DNA of 34,132 nucleotides. It comes from Patescibacteria group bacterium. Its GTDB lineage: Bacteria > Patescibacteriota > Minisyncoccia > Phycocordibacterales > UBA918. The position numbers were made by a program, and so were the translations under genes. The DNA is taken from assembly GCA_019745315.1 (NCBI GenBank), contig JAIETH010000008.1, positions 1-34,132 on the forward strand. The letters run 5' to 3'. Positions 2,002 to 30,030 of this stretch are shown piece by piece (the first letter of the stretch is position 1; every line of letters starts with the position of its first letter). Under the pieces are notes generated by a model. That model did not search any database, was not told the DNA's origin, and saw only the letters and a list, made by a program, of their open reading frames with translations.

Positions 2002-3753
2002 CTACGCGTGAGCCTTTGTTTTTATTTCAGTGGTGAGTTTCTCTACAAGTGCTGCGAGAGTTATCTTTTCTGTTGCACCTGCGCGTGACTCAAGTGTGAT
2101 ATCTTCTGCCTCAACTTCTTTATCGCCAATCACCGCAAAGTAGGGAAGGCGTGCAGTTTTTGCTGCTCGTATTTTCTTCCCAAGATTCTCGTCACTTTGA
2201 TCCATCTCTGCGCGAATTCCAGCGTCTTTGAGAGCTGAAAGAATAGTCCGTGCACACGCTTCATGGGCTTCGCCTACCGTCACTATACGAATCTGCTCAG
2301 GAGCAAGCCATAGAGGGAAGTTACCGCCATAATGTTCGATGAGGATTCCGATAAACCGATCAGGAGAACCAACGAGTGCGCGGTGGATCATAACAGGAGT
2401 TTTCTTTTGTCCGTCTGAGTCTATATACGTAAGTCCAAAGCGTGATGGCATACTAAAGTCGAGCTGTACGGTTGAAATTTGCCATGTGCGACCGAGTGCA
2501 TCAACTGCCATAATATCGATTTTCGGTCCATAGAATGCAGCTTCTCCTTCTGCAGATTTAAATTCAATACCTTTTTCTGTAAGAAGTTTTTCAAGGATAC
2601 CTTGAGAGTTTTCCCATACAGAGTCATCGCCAAGATACTTTTCTTTTTTTTGAGGATCGCGGAGTGAGAGGCGCATCCAGTATGATATTCCGTATGTTTT
2701 GAGCGCTTCTTCGATTGCGTTTAAGATTTGAGATATCTCTTCTTCTATCTGATCAGGTCGACAAAATACGTGTCCGTCGTCTTGTGCAAAAGCGCGGAGG
2801 CGGGTGAGCCCTGAAAGCTCTCCAGGACGCTCGTCGCGATACAGGTTTGCAAAGTCAGAATAGCGAATTGGAAGATCTCTATAGCTCCGCATTTGAGACG
2901 CATAGATTTGAGTGTGCTGCGGGCAATTCATCGGTTTCATAAACATCTCATCTTCAACATATTGTGATTTCACAGAGAGCATATCTTCTTTGTATTGATC
3001 ATAGTGACCAGATATTTTGAAAAGCTCCCCTTTATTTATGTTGGGTGTATGTACTTCTCCAAAGCCAAGCTTATTATTGAGCTCTCGGGAATAGCCTACG
3101 ACTGCATTGCGAACAGTGTTCCCTCGGGGTGTCCAGAGTGGCATTCCTGAACCCACAAGGTCAGAGAAGGTAAAGAGATCGAGTTCTTTACCAAGCTTGC
3201 GGTGATCGCGCTTTTTAGCTTCTTCTATTTGAGCGATATATTCATCAAGATCTGCTGCAGTCGCAAATGCGAGTCCATAAATTCGGGTGAGCATGGTATT
3301 TTTTTCGTCTCCTCGCCAGTATGCTCCCGCGATCGTCGTGAGTTTAAATCCATTCGGATCAATTTCTTTAGCAGGATTTTCTAGATGACCGCCACGACAG
3401 AGGTCAGTATATTTGCCAGACGTGTAGAGTGTGATCTTTTCTCCTCGAGCTTCAATTTCGTTTATGAGTTCAATTTTGTATTGATTGCCTTTATAGAATT
3501 CACGTGCTTCGTAAGCCGTTACTTCTTTGTGCTCAAAAGACGTCCATGATGAAAACGTCTTACGCATCGTTGTTTGTATCTTTTTCAGATCTTCATCAGT
3601 TGGTTTTTCTCCATCTCCAAAATCAAAGTCGAAGTAGAACCCCGTATCTATTGCGGGTCCAATAGTATGTTTTGCGTGTGGGTAGTGTTGCAATACAGCG
3701 GCTGCAAGGAGGTGGGCAAGGGTGTGGCGTAGGTTGTTGAGGTTGTTTTCCAT
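2002..3753 (-). CDS. thrS: Threonyl-tRNA synthetase lacking the TGS domain
   Basis: Charges tRNA-Thr with threonine in the cytoplasm. The 583-aa protein (about 640 in E. coli) starts directly in the editing domain. Editing-site motifs are present: HTLAH near residue 10 and CRGGH near 118. Class II motifs follow: motif 1 around PRGNTVRNAV, the zinc Cys in MNCPQH, motif 2 in RLRAFAQDDGHVF, and the zinc His in MIHRALVGSPDR. The last 100 residues form the anticodon-binding domain. The N-terminal TGS domain of most bacterial ThrRS is absent; upstream of the ATG there is only the T-box leader, so this is a real loss rather than a wrong start. Expression is probably controlled by the T-box immediately upstream. 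The gene is monocistronic and ends at the bidirectional terminator at 1957-1984. Confidence 0.97.
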   Translation of the reverse strand: MENNLNNLRHTLAHLLAAAVLQHYPHAKHTIGPAIDTGFYFDFDFGDGEKPTDEDLKKIQTTMRKTFSSWTSFEHKEVTAYEAREFYKGNQYKIELINEIEARGEKITLYTSGKYTDLCRGGHLENPAKEIDPNGFKLTTIAGAYWRGDEKNTMLTRIYGLAFATAADLDEYIAQIEEAKKRDHRKLGKELDLFTFSDLVGSGMPLWTPRGNTVRNAVVGYSRELNNKLGFGEVHTPNINKGELFKISGHYDQYKEDMLSVKSQYVEDEMFMKPMNCPQHTQIYASQMRSYRDLPIRYSDFANLYRDERPGELSGLTRLRAFAQDDGHVFCRPDQIEEEISQILNAIEEALKTYGISYWMRLSLRDPQKKEKYLGDDSVWENSQGILEKLLTEKGIEFKSAEGEAAFYGPKIDIMAVDALGRTWQISTVQLDFSMPSRFGLTYIDSDGQKKTPVMIHRALVGSPDRFIGILIEHYGGNFPLWLAPEQIRIVTVGEAHEACARTILSALKDAGIRAEMDQSDENLGKKIRAAKTARLPYFAVIGDKEVEAEDITLESRAGATEKITLAALVEKLTTEIKTKAHA

Positions 3754-10325: not shown

Positions 10326-11225
10326 ATGGCAAACAGGCACCTTTCCCGCAGTATCGTTCTTCAAACTCTCTTTGAGTGGGATTTAAATAACCTTGATCGA
10401 ACTGCGCTCGCAGAAGTACTCAATCGAAACATTGAAGAATTTGCTCAGAACCGTTCTGATATGCCATTTATGGAGAATCTCCTCGATGGCGTTCTCCAAA
10501 AACAAAAAGAACTAAATCTTGTTATAGAAAAAGCTGCGCCTGAATGGCCTATCGATCGCATCTCTCCAGTAGATCGAAATATTCTCCGATTAGGTCTGTA
10601 TGAGCTTCTGTTTGCTGATCGAAAAGAAGTTCCTGCGAAAGTTGCAATCAATGAAGCGATTGAGCTTGCGAAGCAGTTTGGAGGAGAGAATTCAAGTCGT
10701 TTTGTAAACGGTGTATTAGGTGCGGTGTATAAAGAAATCGGAGAGCCAGGCAAAGCAGAGCTTTCAAAAAGAAAGAATAAAGATGTGCCGTATGATGAGA
10801 TGCCGATACTTCGTTTGGGAGGAGCTGTCGTATACGCCGAAGAGGGTCAAGATCTCTATTTTGCGTTGGTGCATGATGTATTTGGACACTGGACTCTTTC
10901 TAAAGGAAAGCTTGAGGGAGATGAAGACGCAAAAGAAGGAACACGGAGAGAGGTGAAAGAAGAATTGGGTATTGATGTAGTGATCGAAGATATGCTCGGA
11001 ACAAATGAGTACATCGCTTCTCAGCCCGAGAAAGGGAAGATTCGCAAGCAAGTACAATATTTTCTTGCGCGTGCTAATTATGAGGAATTAACTCTTGAAA
11101 AAAAAGGAGGACTTGATGCAGTGCAGTGGTTTAAGGTGACAAGTATTCTTGAATTGAATTTTTACGAAGACATTCTTCCTATTGTCACCAAGGCTGTTAC
11201 GCTTTTGGTATCAAAAAAGCGCTAG
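10326..11225 (+). CDS. nusB: NusB-NUDIX hydrolase fusion
   Basis: One uninterrupted 299-aa frame holding two domains. Residues 1-140 are NusB, the antitermination factor that joins NusE/S10 on boxA RNA: RHLSRSIVLQTLFEWDL at the start, SPVDRNILRLGLYELLF in the middle and NEAIELAKQFGGENSSRFVNGVLG near the end. After a charged linker (KAELSKRKNKD), residues 157-299 are a NUDIX domain with a complete box at 194-216 (GKLEGDEDAKEGTRREVKEE followed by LGI), with all catalytic Glu present, and an RLGGAVVY start reminiscent of Ap4A-hydrolase-like members. NusB normally ends near residue 140. The two activities could be linked by the fusion, but the substrate is unknown. The gene has its own extended -10 promoter and is followed by rnc. 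Confidence 0.93.
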   Translation: MANRHLSRSIVLQTLFEWDLNNLDRTALAEVLNRNIEEFAQNRSDMPFMENLLDGVLQKQKELNLVIEKAAPEWPIDRISPVDRNILRLGLYELLFADRKEVPAKVAINEAIELAKQFGGENSSRFVNGVLGAVYKEIGEPGKAELSKRKNKDVPYDEMPILRLGGAVVYAEEGQDLYFALVHDVFGHWTLSKGKLEGDEDAKEGTRREVKEELGIDVVIEDMLGTNEYIASQPEKGKIRKQVQYFLARANYEELTLEKKGGLDAVQWFKVTSILELNFYEDILPIVTKAVTLLVSKKR

Positions 11226-12557: not shown

Positions 12558-14852
12558 ATGTACTTGAAGTCTTTGGAGGTGAATGGCTTTAAATCTTTTG
12601 CAAAAAAGAGTGATTTGGAGTTCTCTACTGCTATCACCGCAATTGTGGGTCCAAATGGTTCGGGAAAATCTAATACGGCTGAGGCATTTCGTTTTGTGTT
12701 AGGAGAACAATCTCTTAAGAGTATGCGTGGGAAGCGAGGAGAGGACATGATCTTTAATGGATCGACGTCAGTCAGTCGCTCAAACAGGGCGTCAGTAAAA
12801 ATAACGCTTGATAATACTGCAAAGCATTTCCCTATTGATTTTGATGAGATTACGATTGAGCGTACCGTGTATCGCGATGGAACGAACGAGTATGCCTTAA
12901 ACGGTGGCAAGACTCGCCTTAAGGATGTACAAGAGCTTCTCGCGTCAGCTAATATAGGTTCAACAGGGCATCATATTATTTCTCAAGGAGAAGCCGATCG
13001 CATCCTTACCTCAAGTGCTCGCGAGCGACGCGAGATGATCGAGGATGCGCTCGGGCTCAAGGTATTTCAATATAAAAAAGCAGAGAGCGAGCGAAAGCTT
13101 GAAAAAACAACTGCTAATATTGCACAAGTAGAATCGCTCCGAAGAGAAGTGACACCACACCTGCGTTTCCTTGAGCGTCAGGTCAAGAAGATAGAAAAGT
13201 CTCTTGAGGTTCGCGACGAACTCACAAAAATGTATGTGGAGTACTTGAAGCGTGAAGATGAGTATTTGGCATTTAATCAAGATAGACTCTCTGAAGCTCT
13301 TTGTGCTCCGCGTGCTGAATTGGCGCGTCTTGAAACTGAGCTTGCAAGCGCAAACGCAAAACTTGCTGCTGCTGAGAAAGATGAAAAGCGCGATGCGCTT
13401 GTGCTGATAGAAGGTCAGTTGCGTACCGTTCGTGATGAACGCCAGCAGCGCGCGCGTGAAATTGGAAAGCTCGAAGGTCAGATAAGTTATCTTGAGCGGA
13501 GGATTGCTGAGGCTGAGCGACGCCGTGGAGAAACAGTGGCTCGTCCTGCAATTACATATGAGAGGGTTGAATATGCGATATCGAGCGCTGAAAATCTTGC
13601 TGATCAAGCGCGTGGAGAGGTGAATGTAGAAGTTCTGCAGAGACTGATAACTAACATTGTCAGTGTTCTCCGCTCATTCTTGAATGAGGCGGGAAGTACG
13701 AATGAGTCATCTGTTCCCGAAAACAATGATAGTGAAGAGCGCGATACTCTCGTTGCACAAAAAAAAGAACTCGATGAATCTCTCCTTGGTCTTGATAAAG
13801 AAGAAGAAATGCTGCGCCTTGATTACGAAAGCCTCAAGATTTCTATTGAAGCGGAATTAAGTGAGAGCAGAGAGGCGGAGCGTGAGGTATTCCGTATTAT
13901 GGCGCGTGAACAAGAATTAACGCAGCTTATTTCTCGAACTGAAAGAGATCAGGAGCTTGTAGAGCGTGATCGAAATGAATTTAAGCGAGAACTCGAAGAA
14001 GCCGTTGCCCTTATTGGGCGTTCTGTAACAGACTACTTCTCACATGTAGTTGTCGATAGTATGGGAGAGCCGCTTACGCGAGAAATGATTGCACAAGAAG
14101 ATCGCAGTCATCAAATTGAGCGTAGACGTCTTCTTGAAAAAATGAAGATTCGCCTCGAAGAGTTAGGGGCTGGAGCAGCAGATGATATTTTGAAAGAGTA
14201 TGCTGAAGCAAAAGAGCGCGATGAATTTTTGGCACGAGAAATCGCTGACCTTGAAACGTCAGTTGCGTCACTTCAATCGTTGATTACAGAACTTTCTGCC
14301 GAGCTTAATAATCGATTCAAAGATGGTATTGATAAAATAGCAGAAGAGTTTACGAAGTTTTTCATACTGATGTTTGGTGGTGGTACTGCAAGTTTGCGTC
14401 GCATTAAGCCAAAAGAAGTTAAGAAAAAAGATACCGATACCGATATGGCACACGTCTTGGCTAGCAATGGGGAAGAGGAAGTGGATGAATCTATTGAAGA
14501 AGGTATTGAGATAGATGTATCACTTCCTAATAAGCGTGTGCGAGGCCTTGAGATGCTTTCAGGAGGTGAGCGCGCCCTTACCTCTATTGCGCTTATATTC
14601 GCTATGAGCCAGGTTAACCCGCCACCCTTTGTGATTCTTGATGAGACAGACGCTGCGCTCGATGAGGCAAATAGCAAGCGCTATGGAGATATGATTGAAG
14701 CGCTTTCGAAGAGGTCTCAGCTTATTTTGATTACACATAACCGTGAGACTATGTCACGCGCAGGAGTTCTCTACGGAATCACTATGGGAGGCGATGGGGT
14801 TTCTAAAATTCTTTCAGTGAAGTTTGATGAGGCAGTTGAGGTTGCCAAATAG
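12558..14852 (+). CDS. smc: Short SMC-type ATPase without recognisable hinge
   Basis: Chromosome-organising ATPase of the SMC family. The N-terminal head has Walker A GPNGSGKSN (residues 31-39) and MRGKRGEDMIFNGS. The C-terminal head has the signature LSGGERAL, Walker B FVILDETDAALD and the downstream His switch (THNRE). Between them are two coiled coils of about 170 and 250 residues, joined by a low-complexity stretch (NESSVPENNDSEERD, around residues 375-395). Total length is 764 aa against about 1150-1190 for normal SMC, and the roughly 120-residue globular hinge with its Gly motifs cannot be seen; no zinc-hook CxxC replaces it. Both heads are in one intact frame, so this is not a pseudogene. 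The -10-like TAGGAT (12545-12550) ends 7 nt before the ATG, implying a leaderless mRNA. No scpA or scpB lies nearby. Confidence 0.9.
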   Translation: MYLKSLEVNGFKSFAKKSDLEFSTAITAIVGPNGSGKSNTAEAFRFVLGEQSLKSMRGKRGEDMIFNGSTSVSRSNRASVKITLDNTAKHFPIDFDEITIERTVYRDGTNEYALNGGKTRLKDVQELLASANIGSTGHHIISQGEADRILTSSARERREMIEDALGLKVFQYKKAESERKLEKTTANIAQVESLRREVTPHLRFLERQVKKIEKSLEVRDELTKMYVEYLKREDEYLAFNQDRLSEALCAPRAELARLETELASANAKLAAAEKDEKRDALVLIEGQLRTVRDERQQRAREIGKLEGQISYLERRIAEAERRRGETVARPAITYERVEYAISSAENLADQARGEVNVEVLQRLITNIVSVLRSFLNEAGSTNESSVPENNDSEERDTLVAQKKELDESLLGLDKEEEMLRLDYESLKISIEAELSESREAEREVFRIMAREQELTQLISRTERDQELVERDRNEFKRELEEAVALIGRSVTDYFSHVVVDSMGEPLTREMIAQEDRSHQIERRRLLEKMKIRLEELGAGAADDILKEYAEAKERDEFLAREIADLETSVASLQSLITELSAELNNRFKDGIDKIAEEFTKFFILMFGGGTASLRRIKPKEVKKKDTDTDMAHVLASNGEEEVDESIEEGIEIDVSLPNKRVRGLEMLSGGERALTSIALIFAMSQVNPPPFVILDETDAALDEANSKRYGDMIEALSKRSQLILITHNRETMSRAGVLYGITMGGDGVSKILSVKFDEAVEVAK

Positions 14853-26929: not shown

Positions 26930-26983
26930 TACCCATCTTGTGCACGGTGTGTGCGAGCTAAGGTTGAGCCAAGGTTGATCACA

Positions 26984-28747
26984 ATGGCAATAACACCGGT
27001 AGAAAACATAAAACAGAGACTCTCCATTATTGATGTGGTGAGCTCTTATGTGGTGCTTCAGAAGGCAGGGAAGAGCTTTAAGGGAAAATCTCCTTTTGTG
27101 AGCGAGCGAACACCCTCTTTCTTTGTGTCTCCCGATCGAGGAATGTACTACTGCTTTTCTACGGGGAAAGGAGGGGACATTTTCTCGTTCATACAAGAGA
27201 TGGAAGGAGTAGATTTTAAGGGTGCGCTTAAAATTCTTGCTGAGCGTGCGGGTGTTGAATTGACTGCAGTAGACCCGCGTTCCCGTGATGATAAAGAAAA
27301 ACTTCTTAGTCTTCTTGAAGACGCAACGCGTTACTTTGTTGTCGAGATGGGAAAGAAAGAGGCGATCTCTGCGTATCTAGTAGAGAGAGGTTTACGGAAA
27401 GAGACCATAGAAAAGTGGCGTATTGGGTATGCTCCAGCGGGGTGGCGTAACCTTAAAGAGCATCTTCTTAAGAAGGGGTATACAGAGGATTTTATTTTTA
27501 GATCAGGTCTTCTTAAGAAGACGAATGATGGATCAAAAAACAGCTACGACGTGTTTCGTGATCGTATTATGTTTCCGATCGCGGATTCTTCAGGGCGCGT
27601 TGTCGGGTTCTCTGGACGCATTGTGACCCAAGACCCAGGAGCACCTAAATATGTAAACTCTCCAGAGACCGAGCTCTTTGTAAAATCACAAGTACTTTTT
27701 GGGTATGATCACGCCAAAAGTGGTATCCGCACATTTGATTTCTCTCTGGTGGTTGAAGGTCAGTTTGACCTCGTGCTCTCGCATCAGGCAGGGTATACCA
27801 ACACAGTTGCGCTCTCGGGTACCGCACTCTCCCTTTCTCACGTAGAGATTTTGCAGCGTCTCTCAAACAAAGTAGTACTTGCACTTGATGCAGATCGTGC
27901 CGGTATTGCGTCAGCCAAGCGATTAAGTGAAGTAATGCTGAAGCGTGGTATGGATGTTAAGGTTGCGCGCATTATGGGGGGCAAAGATCCAGCAGACCTT
28001 GTGCGCGAAGATCAAAAGCTTTTGAAACAGGCAGTCGGTGGGTCAGTCCACGTTGTTGAATTTCTTCTTAATGTACTCCGCGATGAAGTTGCCGACGATC
28101 GTACGTTTAAGTTGCGAGTACGAGAGGAAGTGCTTCCATTTATCGCCCTGATGCCAAACAAGATCGATCAAGAACACTTTGCTCGTATTGTAGGAGAGCG
28201 GCTTGGGGTTACAGAAGAGTCGGTGCGACATGAAATATCTCGAGTAAACGAACGAGCGCCCGTTGATCAAAAGAGTATTCCAAAGGATGTTCAGGCTGAA
28301 ATAAAGGTACGGATTCCACGGCGTCGTGAAGAGGATCTTGTGTCACATCTCTATGGAATCTTGCTCTGGCAACAGGGAGAAGAGTCCCCAGTCCTTGATG
28401 AAAAAGTACTTTACAAAAACCTTGAATTAGTCCTCGGGCATGATAGTATGCAATCGCTTGTAGATTGGGGAGAAGATACAAAAAATGAGGCTATTTTTAA
28501 GACAGAGGCCCTCTATGCCGAGGTTGGTGAGTCTCTCAAAAAGGAGGTTGCGAGCATGCTCCATGAGCTGTATGTCGTCGAGCTGCGGCGTCGTCTCGCG
28601 CAAGCTCGTGAGCGATTGAGGGAGTCTGAGCGATCACTTGATACAGCCCTCCAGGAGCGTGAGCTCGCATTATGCTCTAGTATTAATGAAACACTGAAGG
28701 AGATTATTTTAAAAAATCCATTTGAAAAAGTATTTACGGAGCAATAA
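26984..28747 (+). CDS. dnaG: DNA primase with degenerate zinc finger
   Basis: Makes the RNA primers for replication. From ATG 26984 the protein has 587 aa. The N-terminal zinc-finger domain keeps its fold signature ([30 protein letters not shown]), but of the four CHC2 zinc ligands only Cys57 is left: the others are Ser36, Val39 and Thr60. The polymerase core is intact: [14 protein letters not shown] motifs [11 protein letters not shown] and [11 protein letters not shown], and KDPADLV. The C-terminal DnaB-binding region is less conserved. The track's earlier start is a non-ATG codon and less likely. It lies 54 nt after rpoC and 14 nt before rpoD. Confidence 0.96.
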
Positions 28748-28761
28748 ATAAAAAGAATTAT

Positions 28762-30030
28762 ATGGCACCAAAAAAAGCGCAAAAAAAGAAAGTGGTAAAA
28801 AAAGCTCCAAAGAGTGCTGTTAAAAAAGTATCAAAGCCTAAGGTTATACAGAAAAAGAAGGCAATCAAAAAGGTGGTTAAAAAACCAGCCGCTGTTAAGA
28901 AAGCTCCAAAGAAAGCGGTTGCAAAGAAAGTGGTTAAAAAAGCACCTCTCTCAAAAGCTGATCGCCAAAGCGAAGTGAAGCTTGAGGGTGTTATTGCGAA
29001 GGCTCGTGAAAAAGGATATGTAACGTACGATGAGATTATAAAAGTATTTCCCACTATTGAAGATAGTGTTGAAGTGCTTGAAACACTCTACGAGCGCCTT
29101 GCAACAGCAGGCATCGATGTGCTTGAAAGTGGCGGCATGCTCGGAAACGATGCAAGTGACGATCTCCTTGATAAGCGTAATATCTATCGACGAAGCGAGA
29201 GCGGATACGATTCTATTCAGATGTATCTTCGTGAGATTGGACAGTATCCACTTTTGACTGGTGTAGAGGAGCGAACGCTTGCAAAGCGTATTGTTGACGG
29301 AGATGGAGAGGCACGCAATCTTCTCGCGCGCGCTAACCTTCGCCTCGTTGTTTCTATTGCAAAGAAGTATGTCGGACGAAGTCCTGATCTTACACTCCTG
29401 GATCTTATCCAGGAAGGAAACCTCGGTCTCTTTAAGGCGGTAGATAAATTCGACTTCACAAAAGGATTTAAATTCTCGACCTATGCTACTTGGTGGATTC
29501 GCCAAGCTATCACGCGAGCGCTCGCTGATCAGTCTCGTACTATTCGTATCCCGGTTCACATGGTGGAGACGATGGCAAAATATAAGCAGGTATCTCGACG
29601 GCTTTCTCAAGACCTCGGACGAGATCCTGTTGCCGAAGAGATCGCAACGGAAATGGGTATCGAAGTAGATAAGGTCTACCAGATTGAAAAAATTAGTCAG
29701 GATACCATTTCTCTTGAGACACCGATTGGAGACGAGGATGATCGATCACGACTTTCTGACTTTATTTCTGATGATAAAATTTTGCTTCCAGACCAAGAAG
29801 TAGCCCACAGAATCCTTGCCGATCAGGTAAAAGAAATTCTTGACACGCTTTCAGAAAAAGAGCGAAAAATTCTTGAAATGCGTCACGGACTCCTCGATGG
29901 TACGTACCACACGCTTGAAGAGGTAGGAAAAGAATTTGGTGTGACCCGCGAACGCATTCGACAGATCGAAGCTAAGGCGCTCGAAAAGATTCGCCTTCAC
30001 GATAAGGCACGACGCCTCAAAAGTTACTAG
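28762..30030 (+). CDS. rpoD: Primary sigma factor with Lys-rich N-terminal tail
   Basis: Directs RNA polymerase to -10/-35 promoters. The 422-aa protein begins with about 66 residues made almost only of Lys, Ala, Val and Pro (for example [15 protein letters not shown]), resembling histone H1 C-terminal tails. A region-1.1-like domain follows ([18 protein letters not shown]), then regions 1.2 ([17 protein letters not shown]), 2 ([22 protein letters not shown] and [15 protein letters not shown]), 3 and 4 ([25 protein letters not shown]). All DNA-contacting motifs for -10 and -35 are standard, consistent with the TTGACA/TATAAT promoters in the window. It ends in the long terminator at 30029. Confidence 0.97.

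Follow-up and report, generated by a model that had tools for sequence, protein, structure and literature searches.

The primase encoded in the window analysed here, a stretch of 34,132 nucleotides, raises the question of whether a bacterial DnaG can work, and recognise its template, when its zinc domain has lost the residues that hold the metal. The dnaG gene (26984..28747, + strand) encodes 587 residues counted from the ATG at 26984, which also fixes the residue numbers used below; a GTG in the same frame occurs upstream, at 26951. The protein matches TIGR01391, PF01807, PF08275 and Toprim models, and its whole-length match to TIGR01391, the DnaG equivalog model, reaches 381.9 bits against a cut-off of 283.6. 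The RNA polymerase/Toprim core (residues about 122–339, 27347..28000, + strand, with PF08275 at 27347–27718) retains E258-G-x-x-D262 and D302-x-D304, the four acids being invariant in 45 aligned sequences, and its best solved match is 4edg (TM 0.91 by target). The C-terminal part (28304..28747, + strand) is where the helicase-binding domain would be expected. It is poorly conserved, with a mean pairwise identity of 0.19 within the family, and has no Pfam match; DnaB is present in the genome. The genes rpoB, rpoC and rpoD neighbour dnaG in the window, and among the matches listed the closest named relatives of the protein are from Kaiserbacteria and other Patescibacteria MAGs.

The N-terminal zinc-ribbon-type domain (residues 1–105, 26984..27298, + strand) still matches PF01807 at 97.5 bits. 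Alignment with the Aquifex primase (PDB entry 2AU3) and with PF01807 places Ser36, Val39, Cys57 and Thr60 where zinc-binding primases have the CHC2 ligand set Cys-His-Cys-Cys, so that Cys57 is the only one of the four ligands to remain. The first knuckle reads S36-P-F-V39 in place of C-P-F-H (27089..27100, + strand; codons 27089–27091 for Ser36 and 27098–27100 for Val39). The second reads C57-F-S59-T60 in place of C-F-G-C (27152..27163, + strand; codons 27152–27154, 27158–27160 and 27161–27163), and here the change at the ligand is accompanied by a glycine-to-serine replacement at residue 59, which is not itself a ligand. Both the reading frame and the residues on which the original prediction of a primase lacking three of four zinc ligands was based are confirmed.

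We examined related genomes using PF01807, a profile that does not favour the zinc-less form. A CHC2 match was found in 55 of 59 of them. Within the same family the CHC2 domain could be read in 31 genomes, of which 28 are zinc-less, having Ser, then Thr/Ser, Cys and Ser/Thr at the four positions. Since the same change recurs in 28 of 31 genomes read in this way, chance, sequencing error and decay confined to this one genome are ruled out as its source. In other families of the same order the zinc-less form is found in two of 23 genomes (loci L025 and L050). Altogether, 30 of 54 fully read unselected relatives are zinc-less, in addition to the window, although most of these belong to one clade. 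The loss is therefore nearly, but not strictly, lineage-wide, because three same-family relatives (L006, L016 and L017) keep CHCC. The retention of CHC2 ligands by close relatives had been named as an objection to the original prediction. These three do retain them, but they are nested among the 28 zinc-less relatives, which indicates repeated switching and not a refutation. The other objection, that an intact finger might be present in another primase of the genome, found no support: the source genome (771 kb, 98.8% complete) has one PF01807 (CHC2) match, one PF08275 (DNAG_N) match and one normal DnaB, and the CHC2 and DNAG_N profiles revealed no second primase, leaving DnaG as the sole copy.

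The replacements follow a fixed pattern. Intact sequences read either CPFH..CFGC or SPF[T/S/..]..[C/D]FS[S/T]. In a set of 194 primases, residue 36 is Ser in all 141 zinc-less domains and Cys in all 53 CHCC domains, and residue 59 is Ser in 141 of 141 and Gly in 52 of 53, respectively; we note that the 141/141 uniformity is partly selected, as loci L064–L143 were retrieved by motif patterns, and that the unselected relatives agree. Residue 39 is mostly Thr/Ser and residue 60 is Ser/Thr in the zinc-less set, in which residue 57 is divided almost equally between Cys (71) and Asp (70). The association of these switch columns with the state is far above that of all other columns. When a third form was sought among the lowest-scoring intact primase domains, all proved to be CHCC, and hence no series of gradual decay was found. 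The nearest approaches to intermediates are one S-H-D-T sequence (L193) and one CHCC domain with CFSC (L200).

A tree built by a quick method from 173 rows of the catalytic core, with the ribbon excluded, requires at least 17 changes of state by parsimony (45 with shuffled labels), at least nine of them forced by starred branches, with the direction of gain or loss not distinguishable. Residues 36, 39, 59 and 60 switch jointly in eight to nine of nine independent pairs on this tree. How the state has spread is a separate matter. Zinc-less and CHCC alleles may have been swapped by short-tract recombination instead of evolving anew each time, a possibility that we take seriously and place somewhat short of even. 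The three CHCC primases are close sisters of zinc-less ones within one family, and point mutation is unlikely to have restored all four ligands. In addition, this family encodes the two invariant serines almost exclusively with TCN codons, which fits a single ancestral loss, but TCN is also used at other conserved Ser sites in the family and this codon argument is consequently weak. The rest of the ribbon in the three CHCC relatives groups with their own family, so any exchanged tract would have to be very short. For the same reason we rejected wholesale import of a CHCC ribbon into these three relatives. Scanning the three sister pairs at the nucleotide level identified no clear foreign tract.

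Whether the altered domain still functions can be judged in part from its conservation. Within the zinc-less family members, mean identity is 0.83 for the ribbon with the switch columns excluded, compared with 0.65 for the core and 0.19 for the C-terminus, and median dN in the same comparison is 0.09, 0.18 and 0.80, respectively (dS is saturated and no dN/dS value is given). Even without the switch columns, the ribbon is thus better conserved than any other part of these enzymes. It is scarcely credible, then, that the finger is a decaying remnant unnecessary for priming; the missing ligands might suggest as much, but the replacements are specific and recurrent and fall in the best conserved part of the protein.

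The AlphaFold model of 445 residues has pLDDT values of 92–96 over residues 11–90, and a model of the isolated ribbon domain is of moderate confidence. Both match the zinc domain of the Bacillus primase (PDB entry 1d0q) with TM scores of 0.82–0.84 and r.m.s. differences of 2.0–2.1, and the isolated-domain model superposes on the Aquifex structure (PDB entry 2au3) with an r.m.s. difference of 1.4 over 86 columns. The ribbon fold is accordingly predicted to be unchanged, although this is weak evidence of stability, as AlphaFold tends to give the family fold with or without metal. No other conserved Cys or His was found in the 141 zinc-less domains, which makes a replacement metal site unlikely, and the zinc-less ribbon probably binds no zinc. 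The invariance of Cys57 in the 21 zinc-less relatives of alignment A1 could be attributed to binding of another metal, or of a metal shared between two primases through this remaining cysteine. We consider this very unlikely, given that residue 57 is Asp in 70 of the 141 zinc-less domains and that these have no further conserved Cys or His.

In our view, the DnaG of the window is probably a functional replication primase in which the N-terminal ribbon adopts its fold and binds the template with no zinc ion present. The four ligand positions change in concert, to Ser, to Thr/Ser (Val in the window protein), to Cys or Asp and to Ser/Thr, and the Gly-to-Ser change goes with them. The small hydroxyl side chains (and Cys/Asp) may form a hydrogen-bonded, packed knuckle. 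Such a knuckle could substitute for zinc in a purely structural role and leave undisturbed the face of the ribbon that reads the DNA; primers would then be initiated much as usual, whatever the zinc supply or the state of thiol oxidation. We do note that Val39 in the window protein cannot donate the hydrogen bond that Thr or Ser could, which counts against the proposed knuckle. Of the two possibilities raised in the original prediction, recognition of the template without zinc is the one best suited to the sequences, in view of the conservation of the ribbon, its predicted fold and the lack of a second primase. The other, that the zinc-less knuckle alters the template trinucleotide recognised and Okazaki fragments start at other sites, appears unlikely. 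Residues 47 (aromatic) and 62 (Lys/Arg/Gln) do tend to vary with the switch, but this co-variation is weak and was picked from many tests, the switch columns dominate the association with state and the remaining ribbon residues are common to both states.

The primase might also be one of many proteins from which the lineage has stripped zinc. Bacteria are known to economise on zinc through zinc-sparing paralogs (PMC2770081), and all eight same-family genomes that were checked have a zinc-less ribosomal protein bL36. These eight include three with CHCC primases, however, so the states of bL36 and DnaG are uncoupled, and the zinc cysteines are retained in the RpoC and bL32 of the window and in uS14. 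The primase switch is therefore not simply a genome-wide loss of zinc, and we regard general zinc sparing as an improbable explanation. The zinc-less bL36 genes are L248 of the source genome itself (G000:C1:153531-153644) and those of seven family members (L246, L247, L249 and L251–L254); a further one occurs in a Saccharibacteria-type genome (G337, L255).

The zinc-less state is widespread and recurrent, and is not peculiar to the window genome. A pattern scan of GTDB genomes confirmed the zinc-less motif at no fewer than 569 loci, the best 80 of which include Paceibacteria, Saccharibacteria, Flavobacteriales, Cytophagales and one Chlorobiaceae-labelled MAG. The Saccharibacteria DnaG reads S-T/S-D-S, with all four ligands replaced. 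Zinc-less DnaG from Flavobacteriales and Cytophagales has Cys or Asp at the third ligand position, and many Flavobacteriales likewise have all four ligands replaced. We also ran a 48-residue profile of the zinc-less form on 380 Patescibacteria and 248 Bacteroidota genomes; it was calibrated on known cases, which gave a local split between zinc-less (92 bits or more) and CHCC (84 bits or less) sequences, and 60 loci, many of them near the boundary, were read. By this estimate, roughly 40% of the sampled Bacteroidota are zinc-less (about 98 of 248, from matches of at least 88 bits and two read below this value), as are roughly 37 of 358 Patescibacteria, the latter figure also being an estimate because in that group the states overlap at about 82–97 bits. 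One Patescibacteria genome (G281) has two zinc-less DnaG genes of differing sequence (L156 and L157). Among Pseudomonadota, the zinc-less form occurs in Methylobacterium bullatum (SNCS) and on the megaplasmid of Methylorubrum extorquens AM1 (SQCS); the Sinorhizobium, Paracoccus and Tistrella copies are CHCC.

Phage primases can also be zinc-less, as in Caulobacter phage Sansa (STCS) and Flavobacterium phages (SVDS and STDS). The loci concerned are L259, L261 and L268, from Flavobacterium phages laban6-1 and 1H and from Sansa, and the state of the Flavobacterium phage primases agrees with that in Flavobacteriales. A bolder proposal would make the zinc knuckle and the Ser/Thr knuckle two interchangeable states of the primase ribbon, with switching between them retuning template recognition, such that clades and their phages would have different Okazaki start codes following the knuckle state. 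We think it quite doubtful that this is so.

Comparison with bacterial DnaG in general (TIGR01391; PDB entries 1d0q, 2au3 and 4edg) indicates the same domain order, Toprim residues, ribbon fold, single copy and rpoC–dnaG–rpoD neighbourhood; the window enzyme differs in having three of four zinc ligands replaced and Gly59 changed to Ser. The zinc domains of T7 and plant primases likewise form a template-reading ribbon ahead of a Toprim core, but in these the zinc is held by cysteines and the primase is fused to a helicase (PMC10557236), unlike the window DnaG. Ribosomal zinc ribbons of the C-minus type, such as bL36, also keep their role after losing Cys/His ligands; in contrast, the DnaG replacement motif recurs across phyla, and DnaG is an enzyme of replication present only once in this genome. 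DksA without its C4 motif and similar zinc-sparing paralogs (PMC2770081) have lost ligands and presumably kept the fold. Those, however, are zinc-regulated second copies, whereas the window DnaG has no zinc-binding paralog (one CHC2 and one DNAG_N match).

Primase is not mentioned in that work on zinc-sparing paralogs. A review (PMC6163395) notes the strong conservation of the four DnaG zinc ligands, whose precise function it treats as unsettled. No account of a zinc-less DnaG was found in the open-licence literature searched, and it may have been described elsewhere; dnaG does not feature in the main text of the S. epibionticum transposon paper. A primase domain believed to require zinc can apparently do without the metal, which cautions against assuming zinc dependence of every bacterial primase. 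Natural zinc-less primases include close relatives in both states, and comparison of such sister pairs would separate the structural role of zinc from a role in recognition. Some of the genera in which zinc-less primases occur have cultured representatives, among them Chryseobacterium, Shiella, Methylorubrum and Nanosynbacter.

Several other features of the window deserve mention. The main sigma factor (28762–30030) has at its N-terminus a histone-like tail rich in lysine, alanine and proline, about 65 residues long and located ahead of region 1.1. NusB and a NUDIX hydrolase domain are fused in one reading frame at 10326–11225, and an SMC-type protein of only 764 residues at 12558–14852 has both ATPase halves and no Pfam hinge-domain match. 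The threonyl-tRNA synthetase at 2002–3753 (583 residues) apparently lacks the N-terminal TGS domain at its start. Finally, the protein at 1–1935, which runs off the start of the window, contains near-identical repeats (PNIAGDQATIPAGMIKDTAGNCVTPP), after which come repeats of Ig-like appearance and a hydrophobic segment.
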